Shown here: piece by piece, positions 2,922 through 6,668 of the stretch
How the letters are laid out: the number at the start of each line of letters is the position of its first letter
Numbering within the stretch: the first letter of the stretch is position 1
DNA from: a bacterium
Lineage (GTDB): Bacteria > ARS69
Assembly: GCA_025774865.1 (NCBI GenBank)
Contig: JALGZO010000544.1
Span: forward strand, 1 to 9,311
DNA: 9,311 nt
Direction: 5' to 3'
The notes under the pieces: model-generated
The model's input: the letters and a program-made list of their open reading frames with translations, nothing else
Told to the model about the DNA's origin: nothing
Database searches by the model: none
Program-made: the position numbers and the translations under genes

Positions 2922-5420
2922 TCACCAGTCCATCCAGCCGTCCGGAATCGCCTCCGGGGGAACGAGCAGCATGGGCGCCCCGGGTCGGTCCGCCAGCATC
3001 CGCACGTAGCGCCACGCGTACTCCTCGCGCTCGACCTCGTCCCCCACGAGCGGTTCGACGAAAGAGCTCATCCGAAGCAGGCGCGCCGTCGACAGCCCGA
3101 ATCGCGGCCGCGGTGGATACTCCTCGATCAGGATCTCCTCGTCCGGCTCGAGACCGGCGAGCTCCCGCGCTCTCGCGAGGGCGTCGGGGAGCGTCCCGAT
3201 CTCGTCGCAGAGGCCGCGCTCGACCGCGTCCCCCCCCATCCAGACCCGCCCTTCGGCGAGCTCGCGGACGCGCTCCTCGGGGAGGTTGCGCCCCCGGGCC
3301 ACGGACGCGACGAAGCCGTCGTAGAGCTCCATGGTCCCCTCGCGCATGCGCTCCTTCTCGCCTTCGTCGAGGTTTCGCGTCGGCAATCGCAGCCCGATGA
3401 GGGGGAAACGGATTCCGCTGAACAAATCCGCGTGCGATCCGCGCTGAATGCCGTCCGCGGAGAACCCCGTCTTCCCGCCGAGCCCATCGTCCCAGACCCA
3501 CGCGGAGATCACGCCGATCGACCCGGTGACGGTGAGGGGAGTCGTGTACATCCGATCGGCGTCCGTGCAGATGCGATAGCCGCCCGACGCTGCCACGTCT
3601 CCTTGCGTGATGACGACCGGCTTCCCCTTCCCCCGCAGTTCCACGACGCCGTCGGCCACGAGCTCCGCCGGCAGGGGATCGCCGCCCGGCGAGTCCGCGC
3701 GCATCACGACGGCGGCGACGTCACGACGCTTCGCGAGCTTCTCCAGATGACGAGACATCCCGCGACCCTGGAATCCCTTGTCCATCTCGCTGGCGCCGTC
3801 CGCGTAGACCAGCGCGACGACCGGGGGCTTGCCCCACCGCTCGTCGTAATGCGGGCCTTCCGGCTCGCGGTTCGCCAGCGAGCCTCCCCGCTCCTTCACC
3901 CACTTCCGAACGTCTTCCCACCGTCCGAGGGCGTCGACGAGTCCTCGCTCCTTCGCTTCCTCCGCGAAGATGATCGCGCGTTCCTCCACGATCGTCTCGA
4001 ACGCCGCTTCCGAGATCCCACGCGACTCGCAGATCTCGGCCCGGAGCGTCTCGTAGATGACGTCGACCTGGCGACCGATCTGCTCGCGATCGGCCTCGGA
4101 CATGTCCGTTCGGGTGAACGTCTCGGCCGCCGACTTGTACCGGAAGTAGCGGTGCTCCTCGAATCCGATCCCGAGCTTCTCGAGGAGTCCTTTCATGTAC
4201 GTGCGCTGGGCCGCGAGCCCGACGATCTCGAGATCACCGCGCGGCTCCATGACCACGTGGTCAGCCGCCGACGCGAGCCAGTAACCGCCCATTCGGGCCC
4301 GATCCAGGTGGACCGCGACTTCCAGTCCGGCCTCCTGGCACGCCACGAGCTCCTGTCGCAGCTCCCACAAAAGCGACGGCCGGATGCGCGACTCCGAAAG
4401 CCGTACGACGACTCCTCCGACGCCCGCGTCCCGTCGGAGCCGTTCGAGCTGGTGGCAGACGTCGATCCACGCCACCCGCTTCTTGTCGAACCAACGACCG
4501 CGCTGGTAGGTGAGCGTGCGTTTCTCGAGATCGATCGTCTCCCATCGCTTGTGGCCCGAGCGCTTCCTCAGCCAGGTCTCGAACGGGAGCCCCCGGTACG
4601 GCGGATTGCCCCGGACGAGGTAGGTCGTCGTACCGCGGTCACCCCCGTCGTCGTAGCCGGGCAGGATGTGGAGACCGAGGCGGTCGATGGTCAGTCCGAG
4701 ATTGACCACGTACTCGAGCTCGTCGGTGCCCGACCTCTCCTGCACTCGCGCGCCGAGGTGAACGCCCCCGGCTGGCCGGATCTCCACCCCCGCGGACCAC
4801 TCCCCGTCGCCGATCCGCTGCTTCGACGTCAGGGAGTAGTCACCGAAGACCGTCAGCTCGGGACGTCCGAGGGGCCGAATCCCGAGGTCCGCGACTCCCA
4901 CGGCGTGGCTTCGCTCCGCCGAGAGAAGCCCGCTCAACCCATAGCTCATGAACCGGTTCGGACGCGCGATGCTGCCCAGGACAAGGCCGTTGTCTCGGCC
5001 GAGGGCGTCGTCGTCGCCGGTCGACCACCGCCAGGCGACGCCCGTATGCGCGATGCGGTTCCCGGCCGCGAAGCCCACCTGGTAGTCGTAAACGCGAAGC
5101 CGTCCGCTCTCGGCGGGCACGGTGCGCCGCTCCACGGAGAATCCGAGTTGGCCCCCGGCCGACAGTCCCCAATTGTCCAGGGAGTGCTGCACCACCGTGT
5201 CGTCGTTCCACCAGAACGCGAGCTCGCCACCCGCGACCGTCGACCACGCGGCGGGGTTCACGAGACCGCCGACGGCCCCTCCCGTGACGCTCGGCGACGC
5301 CGGGAGAAGATCCCGGCGCGCGAAGTCCGTCACCGAGTCGGACGCGGTGGCCGCGCCGGAGGCAAGTGTCGCCGCAGCGATGGCGAGTGCGATCCCGTGG
5401 ATTCCGTCACGCGCGGTCAT
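2922..5420 (-). CDS. sppA: Signal peptide peptidase SppA (S49 family), with an extra barrel-like N-terminal region
   Basis: SppA cleaves leftover signal peptides after secretion. The product is 832 residues, against about 620 for E. coli SppA. Residues 1-27 are a signal peptide. Residues about 42-255 do not look like SppA: they begin with a GGAVGGLVNPAAW stretch recalling the N-terminal GGA...NPAAL motif of FadL/PorV-like outer-membrane barrels, and continue as roughly 10-12 short amphipathic strands. From about 310 onward come two tandem S49 domains. The general-base Lys is K429 in YKSAAETF, the oxyanion-type SPGG is 577-580, and the nucleophile Ser is S612 in ASGGY, so the Ser-Lys dyad is intact and the enzyme should be active. 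A good Shine-Dalgarno (GGAG at 5427-5430) precedes the ATG. The gene lies 24 bp after the sulfatase-like gene, likely in one operon. The barrel reading is inference. Confidence 0.9.
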   Translation of the reverse strand: MTARDGIHGIALAIAAATLASGAATASDSVTDFARRDLLPASPSVTGGAVGGLVNPAAWSTVAGGELAFWWNDDTVVQHSLDNWGLSAGGQLGFSVERRTVPAESGRLRVYDYQVGFAAGNRIAHTGVAWRWSTGDDDALGRDNGLVLGSIARPNRFMSYGLSGLLSAERSHAVGVADLGIRPLGRPELTVFGDYSLTSKQRIGDGEWSAGVEIRPAGGVHLGARVQERSGTDELEYVVNLGLTIDRLGLHILPGYDDGGDRGTTTYLVRGNPPYRGLPFETWLRKRSGHKRWETIDLEKRTLTYQRGRWFDKKRVAWIDVCHQLERLRRDAGVGGVVVRLSESRIRPSLLWELRQELVACQEAGLEVAVHLDRARMGGYWLASAADHVVMEPRGDLEIVGLAAQRTYMKGLLEKLGIGFEEHRYFRYKSAAETFTRTDMSEADREQIGRQVDVIYETLRAEICESRGISEAAFETIVEERAIIFAEEAKERGLVDALGRWEDVRKWVKERGGSLANREPEGPHYDERWGKPPVVALVYADGASEMDKGFQGRGMSRHLEKLAKRRDVAAVVMRADSPGGDPLPAELVADGVVELRGKGKPVVITQGDVAASGGYRICTDADRMYTTPLTVTGSIGVISAWVWDDGLGGKTGFSADGIQRGSHADLFSGIRFPLIGLRLPTRNLDEGEKERMREGTMELYDGFVASVARGRNLPEERVRELAEGRVWMGGDAVERGLCDEIGTLPDALARARELAGLEPDEEILIEEYPPRPRFGLSTARLLRMSSFVEPLVGDEVEREEYAWRYVRMLADRPGAPMLLVPPEAIPDGWMDW

Positions 5421-5444: not shown

Positions 5445-6668
5445 CTAGTCGATGTACCCCAACGCGCGAAGCCTCTCGGTGAGCTCTGGGCTCGGCGCCT
5501 CCGCGGACAACTCTCGCACGATCCCGCCGAGACCGGCGAGGAGTGTTCGGAACTCGCGGACCCGTTCCGGATGCTCGGCGGCGACGTCTCTCGTCTCCCC
5601 CGGGTCGTTCTGCAAGTCGTAGAGCGCGCTGCCCGCCCTCCCGTCCAGCACGAGCTTCCACGGCCCATCGACGAACGCCTTGCGCCGGCCCATCTCGCTG
5701 ACCGCCGGCAGCGACGGACCGATCTCGCCGCGCAGGCGGCCCACCAGGCTCACGCCGTCGAACGAGCCCGCGACCGGGAGCCCCACCCCCTCGAGGATCG
5801 TCGGAGCGACGTCGAGGTTGCGGACCGTCTCGGCCACGAGTGCCCCGCCGCGCTCGTCGTTCGGGTCCCGGAGGATCAGCGGCACGTGCACGAGCTCCTG
5901 GAAGACGGTGTGCGAATGCAGCACGGTACCGTGATCCCAGAGTTCCTCGCCGTGGTCCGAGACGACGATCACCAGCGTCCGGCTCTCGAACCCCTCGCCC
6001 TCCAGGACGCGGAGAAGCCGGCCGACCTCCGCATCCGTGTACCGGATTCCGCCCGCGTACAGCGACCGAATTCGTCGGCGCTCGACGGGTGAGAGTCGCG
6101 GCGGGTCGCCATCGCCCTCGAGTCCCCGCAAGCGCCGGCAGAGCTCTCTCGTCCCCGCCCCCGGAACGAACGCGAAGAACGGCTCGCGATTGCCTTCTTC
6201 CCACCACGACGCGATTCTCGGCACCGCCCACGAGAGCCCGGCCCGGTCCTCTTCGTATTCCGCGAAACCGCGGTCGAACCCGAGTTCGGCCGAGATGTTG
6301 CCGCCGCCCGTGAGAGCGATGGTCCTCCACCCCGCGTCTCGCATCAATTCCGCGAGCACCGGGCGCTCGTCGTCCGTGAGGGACGCCGGGCGCGACTGGA
6401 ACATCGAGCGGTGCGAGGGAAGCGTCGACGCCGACTGCGCGATACATGACCGGAACATGGCGCCTCGCCGGGCCAGTCGGTCGAGGTATGGACTGATCCC
6501 TCCGGGGTGACCCCAGGCCCCGAGGTGATCCGCGCGCAGCGTGTCGAGCGAGATCAAAAGGACGTTCAGCGGAGCCGCGTGTCGGGGAGAGCACGAAACG
6601 AGGGGCGGCAACGCGACCAAGAGCGCCCAGAGGAGCGGCAGGCGGTGACGAGCGAAGGGGTCGCGCAT
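5445..6668 (-). CDS. Sulfatase-like lipoprotein (alkaline phosphatase superfamily)
   Basis: The product is 407 residues. A hydrophobic leader ends in the lipobox LVSC (Cys26), so it is a predicted lipoprotein. The superfamily is shown by NVLLISLDTLRADHLG (35-50, with metal-ligand D42), STLPSH (81-86) at the nucleophile position, SDHGEEL (237-243, metal-binding D238/H239), HSH (251-253), and a C-terminal LYDLQNDPGETRD typical of sulfatases. Two points are odd. The nucleophile position holds Thr82 rather than the Cys or Ser that is converted to formylglycine in true sulfatases. The usual DPHxPY segment after the central FFAF (164-167) is not recognisable. The enzyme may therefore be a phosphohydrolase or phosphotransferase, or have lost sulfatase activity; the substrate is unknown. 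No Shine-Dalgarno is visible before the ATG. The sppA-type gene follows after 24 bp. Confidence 0.85.
   Translation of the reverse strand: MRDPFARHRLPLLWALLVALPPLVSCSPRHAAPLNVLLISLDTLRADHLGAWGHPGGISPYLDRLARRGAMFRSCIAQSASTLPSHRSMFQSRPASLTDDERPVLAELMRDAGWRTIALTGGGNISAELGFDRGFAEYEEDRAGLSWAVPRIASWWEEGNREPFFAFVPGAGTRELCRRLRGLEGDGDPPRLSPVERRRIRSLYAGGIRYTDAEVGRLLRVLEGEGFESRTLVIVVSDHGEELWDHGTVLHSHTVFQELVHVPLILRDPNDERGGALVAETVRNLDVAPTILEGVGLPVAGSFDGVSLVGRLRGEIGPSLPAVSEMGRRKAFVDGPWKLVLDGRAGSALYDLQNDPGETRDVAAEHPERVREFRTLLAGLGGIVRELSAEAPSPELTERLRALGYID

Follow-up and report, generated by a model that had tools for sequence, protein, structure and literature searches.

The 9,311-nucleotide stretch of DNA analyzed here (the window) harbors, at positions 2922–5420 of the minus strand, a clear long gene that encodes a protein of 832 amino acids. 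From the N-terminus onward, this fusion protein consists of a signal peptide, a predicted barrel of the FadL/PorV superfamily with an NPA-containing hatch, and two S49 peptidase domains (Table 1). The initial annotation described positions 4656–5340, that is, residues 27–255, as a barrel-like extension of an SppA peptidase. The N-terminal region was correctly recognized as the location of the barrel, but the predicted barrel ends near residue 270 (window position 4611), past the proposed boundary at 255.

Table 1 Features of the fusion protein and their positions in the window
Feature	Residues	Window positions	Strand	Basis
Sec-type signal peptide	1–26	5343–5420	-	Read from the sequence; hydrophobic window of 1.56 spanning residues 6–24
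Hatch segment preceding the barrel	36–65	5226–5315	-	Model: short helices ahead of strand 1
NPA motif	55–57	5250–5258	-	Conservation; alignment on the NPA of PorV-family proteins
Predicted 14-stranded outer-membrane barrel	66–270	4611–5225	-	AlphaFold2 model and structure matches
Variable linker	271–290	4551–4610	-	Poorly conserved; no hydrophobic helix
First S49 domain (Lys429 at 4134–4136)	291–530	3831–4550	-	PF01343, TIGR00706
Second S49 domain (nucleophile Ser612 at 3585–3587)	531–770	3111–3830	-	PF01343, best stretch 596–757

The signal peptide contains no lipobox cysteine by sequence reading and is likely to be cleaved after A24-T25-A26, and a hydropathy scan detected no transmembrane segment further along the protein that would be stronger than this N-terminal one. 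Signal-peptide-like starts are present in every member with a complete start within the set of 26 barrel-S49 proteins that we aligned (the set includes relatives fetched by name; two of the proteins lack the start at a contig end). Upstream of the fusion gene and on the same strand lies a sulfatase-family gene (5445–6668, minus strand) with a lipoprotein-like signal (LVSC); the two genes are separated by about two dozen bases, and the pair is retained in genome G001 (locus L056). On the opposite strand, the frame 778–2268 (coding part about 1003–2268) encodes a single haem-binding-type motif, CNLCH, near the mature start; its product is possibly an outer-membrane barrel protein, for which Pfam yields only a very weak match to Porin_O_P (E = 0.1), and a relative of this gene adjoins the fusion gene in locus L054. 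Beyond close relatives, no conserved gene neighborhood of the fusion gene was found.

The C-terminal part of the protein (residues 315–770) is SppA-like by both Pfam and NCBIfam. The PF01343 model matches it in two stretches with 203.6 bits (cut-off 24.9), and TIGR00706 scores 190.8, above its cut-off of 155.45; the long-form SppA model TIGR00705 reaches 231.6 bits, below its cut-off of 311.45, so that this equivalog assignment does not extend to the fusion protein. In the alignment with the Escherichia coli SppA structure 3bez (chain numbering offset by 25 residues), K429 and S612 correspond to K209 and S409, in agreement with the initial claim of an intact catalytic dyad, and both residues are invariant in all 26 full-length relatives. 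Judging from these matches, the fusion protein is a member of peptidase family S49, with a predicted Lys/Ser dyad that spans its two domains. It resembles E. coli SppA (protease IV; 3bez/3bf0; TIGR00705) in the two S49 domains, the aligned dyad and the predicted periplasm-facing orientation. A single N-terminal helix anchors the E. coli enzyme in the inner membrane, and the enzyme acts on liberated signal peptides in the periplasm (PMC9360617); where SppA has this helix, the fusion protein has a predicted barrel of about 205 residues. The same difference separates the fusions from their paralogs. A strong helix (19-residue hydropathy 2.3–3.2) precedes the S49 core in 30 of the 30 ordinary S49 paralogs, whereas none of the 26 fusions contains an inner-membrane helix between the signal peptide and the S49 core (maximum window 1.41), which indicates that the barrel occupies the place of that helix. 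Nearly all of the 25 fusion genomes tested additionally encode an S49 protein of the ordinary kind, roughly 300 or 600 residues long, G198 having the fusion only; in the window's own genome, a second S49 gene extends off the end of a contig (C173).

Several sequence signals point to the nature of the N-terminal region. Residues 47–59 (GGAVGGLVNPAAW) contain the NPA motif that had been claimed for this region; N55 and P56 are invariant in 26 of 26 relatives, and at the third position 24 relatives have A and the other 2 have S. This conservation, together with that of K429 and S612, shows that the observation is more than chance. The amphipathic strands that had been noticed by eye are reflected in the hydrophobic moment: the ratio of the mean values at 170 and 100 degrees is 1.47 for residues 60–275, compared with 0.66 and 0.83 in the S49 halves, so that the beta-type signal is confined to the N-terminal region. 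Close to the end of the last strand, an aromatic residue (Y267 in the window's protein) is found in 25 of the 26 members, which would fit a barrel-assembly signal. Curated families are nearly silent on this part of the protein. Residues 28–300 are not covered by any Pfam or NCBIfam model; direct searches with the barrel region of the 26 members in Pfam, NCBIfam and PDB sequences yielded nothing usable, with one member matching Toluene_X (PF03349) at E = 0.0047, and none of the 26 directly matched NF033709 (PorV/PorQ family) at E-values up to 1.

We modeled residues 28–310 with AlphaFold2 from an alignment of four sequences, with three relatives permitted. The initial annotation proposed structure prediction of residues 28–300, with a soluble fold as a refuting outcome; the model instead shows a barrel of fourteen strands preceded by short helices (pTM 0.63, mean pLDDT 56). 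In structure comparison (VIA-align), the best match of this model is FadL (Z = 21.5 over 229 residues at 3.3 A), followed by type IX translocon PorV (8gl6_F, Z = 20.8; 6h3i_F, 20.6) and the FadL-type subunits of Bacteroidota BAM complexes (Z = 17.6–19.4); TodX transporters match the fold as well, whereas OmpG, also 14-stranded, reaches only 15.5. The choice of the FadL/PorV superfamily is well separated from other barrels, although the details of this low-confidence model should not be trusted. With a pLDDT of 48.6 and a pTM of 0.37, the model of the full-length protein is too weak to position the peptidase relative to the barrel.

Homology to the PorV family emerges through profiles only. A profile of the fusion N-terminal region (A4) was compared with 22 PorV-family proteins from a set gathered independently from these genomes by means of the public NF033709 model. 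The hhalign probability was 96.6% (E = 6e-10, score 75.5), with NPA aligned on NPA; control scores were 14.8 for the reversed PorV alignment, at most 16.3 for column-shuffled ones and 11.5 for the S49 alignment. Conversely, where the A4 profile gives weak and short matches, the proteins stand alone, and NCBIfam assigns the majority of them to the PorV/PorQ family. The suggested FadL/PorV-type barrel is accordingly supported by the structure model, by controlled profile-profile homology and by the lack of a transmembrane helix past the signal peptide. With FadL/TodX (PF03349), the fusion protein shares a predicted 14-strand barrel (at low pLDDT) with an N-terminal hatch that carries NPA and aligns with the N-terminal region of FadL/PorV; it differs in that its barrel is much smaller, has very short outer loops and is attached to a C-terminal peptidase. 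With the PorV/PorQ family, including PorV of type IX secretion (NF033709), it shares fold, sequence homology and the aligned motif; however, PorV is a standalone protein of about 350 amino acids, and in the profile alignment the PorV consensus does not show the RP motifs of the fusion at the periplasmic ends (R153-P154 and R182-P183). A barrel of the FadL type serves as part of a complex in the Bacteroidota BAM machine, whose FadL-family subunit BamG (PMC12611786) lacks a peptidase domain.

In the FadL family, an even number of strands brings the chain back to the periplasm. With 14 strands, the peptidase would therefore be located on the periplasmic face of the outer membrane. In a genome of the same set, a PorV-family barrel is fused at its C-terminus to an OmpA domain (L138, 512–2008, minus strand), and OmpA domains are cell-wall-binding modules. 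The initially suggested orientation, in which the S49 part faces the periplasm, is a consequence of the even strand number and is supported by this PorV-OmpA fusion. With positions assigned according to the model, the periplasmic turns are more conserved than the outer loops (2.19 vs 1.35 bits). The turns contain R182, P183 and G219, and R153-P154 sits where a strand ends on the periplasmic side; all are near-invariant or almost so, and the predicted outer loops are variable and only about 2–9 residues long. This pattern suggests that the working face is not the external one, and the periplasmic rim of the modeled barrel may dock the peptidase.

From these observations, we infer that the fusion protein resides in the outer membrane, and it is very probable that the gene encodes an outer-membrane form of long SppA in which the barrel is mainly an anchor and the S49 part degrades periplasmic peptides below it; the cellular role, peptide degradation included, is proposed by analogy with SppA, and the substrates may, as the initial annotation proposed, differ from those of the E. 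coli enzyme. In such a scheme, Sec would export the chain and the signal peptide would be removed, after which the BAM machinery would fold the barrel into the outer membrane. The 14 strands would return the chain to the periplasm, so that the S49 part, probably oligomerized as in SppA, would be suspended on the inner side of the outer membrane and break down peptides and protein fragments in the nearby periplasm, while the ordinary SppA of the same cell would do likewise from the inner membrane. The barrel would serve chiefly as an anchor, with its conserved periplasmic turns possibly docking the peptidase.

The architecture is not peculiar to the window. A homolog search with the N-terminal region alone, as the initial annotation had called for, used residues 1–258 and produced matches in 25 of 290 genomes, nearly all of them in frames of about 790–945 codons, and the A4 profile matched proteins in 85 of 386 genomes. 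About 64 of these 386 sampled genomes carry the fusion (counted from frame lengths and E-values, and including G086, where the gene is truncated at a contig edge), and the S49 domain was present in all 21 of the long frames that were checked among the weaker A4 matches. An assembly chimera was considered as the source of the architecture and rejected, given its recurrence in about 64 genomes and in each of these 21 frames. Nearly all fusion genomes are outside the window's phylum, the exceptions belonging to the window's own family, and the carriers represent dozens of distant bacterial families; the relatives fetched by name are metagenome-assembled genomes, one of them from a Candidatus Krumholzibacteriia bacterium. 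In the tree of the S49 part, 21 fusions, including the window's, form one core clade (support 99/95), and other fusions are interleaved with ordinary forms in poorly resolved deep forks; the tree needs five label changes, of which well-supported branches force just one. Both one fusion event with later losses and several fusion events are possible on this tree. Two loci depart from the common arrangement. At L005 (2–211, plus strand), an apparent GAF-domain fragment at the contig start continues in frame into the barrel, with no signal peptide; this contig end is probably chimeric. At L150 (540–2285, minus strand; G106 contig C158), there is a second copy of the barrel domain, perhaps decayed or split, in which the frame stops directly after the barrel and an in-frame TGA is reported.

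The barrel could, alternatively, be a working channel that passes hydrophobic peptides or lipopeptides, from the outside or, via a FadL-like side opening, from the outer membrane, straight to the peptidase. The fold matches the FadL and TodX transporters, barrels of the FadL family move hydrophobic molecules (PMC12611786), and the NPA motif of the FadL hatch, reported to be essential for the conformational change of FadL (PMC8407342), is nearly invariant here. The short, variable outer loops do not fit such a conduit, however, and a FadL-type fold is no proof of transport, because standalone PorV-family relatives carry the aligned NPA as well and BamG is a structural subunit of the BAM machine (PMC12611786); we consider a channel distinctly unlikely. 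Less probable still is a reading of the N-terminal region as a soluble periplasmic domain rich in beta strands, with an uncleaved signal peptide holding the protein at the inner membrane. The low confidence of the barrel model and the lack of a curated family for this region leave some room for this reading, against which stand the controlled profile homology to PorV, barrel-fold Z-scores far above those of other matches, the alternating-residue pattern and, in most members, an N-terminal hydrophobic stretch weaker than that of the anchored paralogs.

A different kind of role, also unlikely, would be that of an accessory that removes failed substrates or remnants at the type IX secretion system or at a BAM machine of the Bacteroidota type. 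Subunits of the FadL family occur in such machines (BamG and PorV), and SprA, the channel of type IX secretion, is found in 60 of the 64 fusion genomes compared with 93 of the 322 others (E up to 1e-3), or 59 and 67, respectively, when weak matches are left out (Fisher p below 1e-22, a value that ignores shared ancestry). Among the 25 fusion genomes tested, PorV-family proteins above the cut-off, SprA matches and a C25 peptidase are each found in 24. Yet shared ancestry can yield the same association, and 4–5 fusion genomes lack SprA. The strongest SprA matches come from genomes without the fusion, such as G211 and G341, so that type IX secretion does not need the fusion protein, and no conserved neighborhood links the fusion gene to type IX or BAM genes. 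The type IX link is therefore a lead only, and SprA may merely mark a shared lineage. Near one fusion gene, L006 (1574–4297, minus strand) encodes a repeat-rich secreted protein with an apparent type IX-style C-terminal sorting tail (NPFNP...). A more elaborate possibility, to which we give little credence, is that the hatch and the periplasmic rim gate or switch on the S49 chamber, which would degrade peptides at or through the outer membrane in conjunction with type IX export in many bacteria.

The outer-membrane form of SppA that we favor would thus amount to ordinary S49 catalysis on an unusual anchor, widespread and apparently unnamed; our literature search, which offers weak evidence given that most subscription papers were outside its scope, found no description of a barrel-S49 architecture. 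Textbook accounts place SppA in the inner membrane and have it dispose of spent signal peptides. If the proposed location is correct, many bacteria would carry out SppA-type proteolysis at both boundaries of the periplasm, and the annotation "signal peptide peptidase SppA" would conceal two cell addresses. The fusion would then provide a concrete family, with named residues, for studying the handling of debris from peptides and proteins at the outer membrane.
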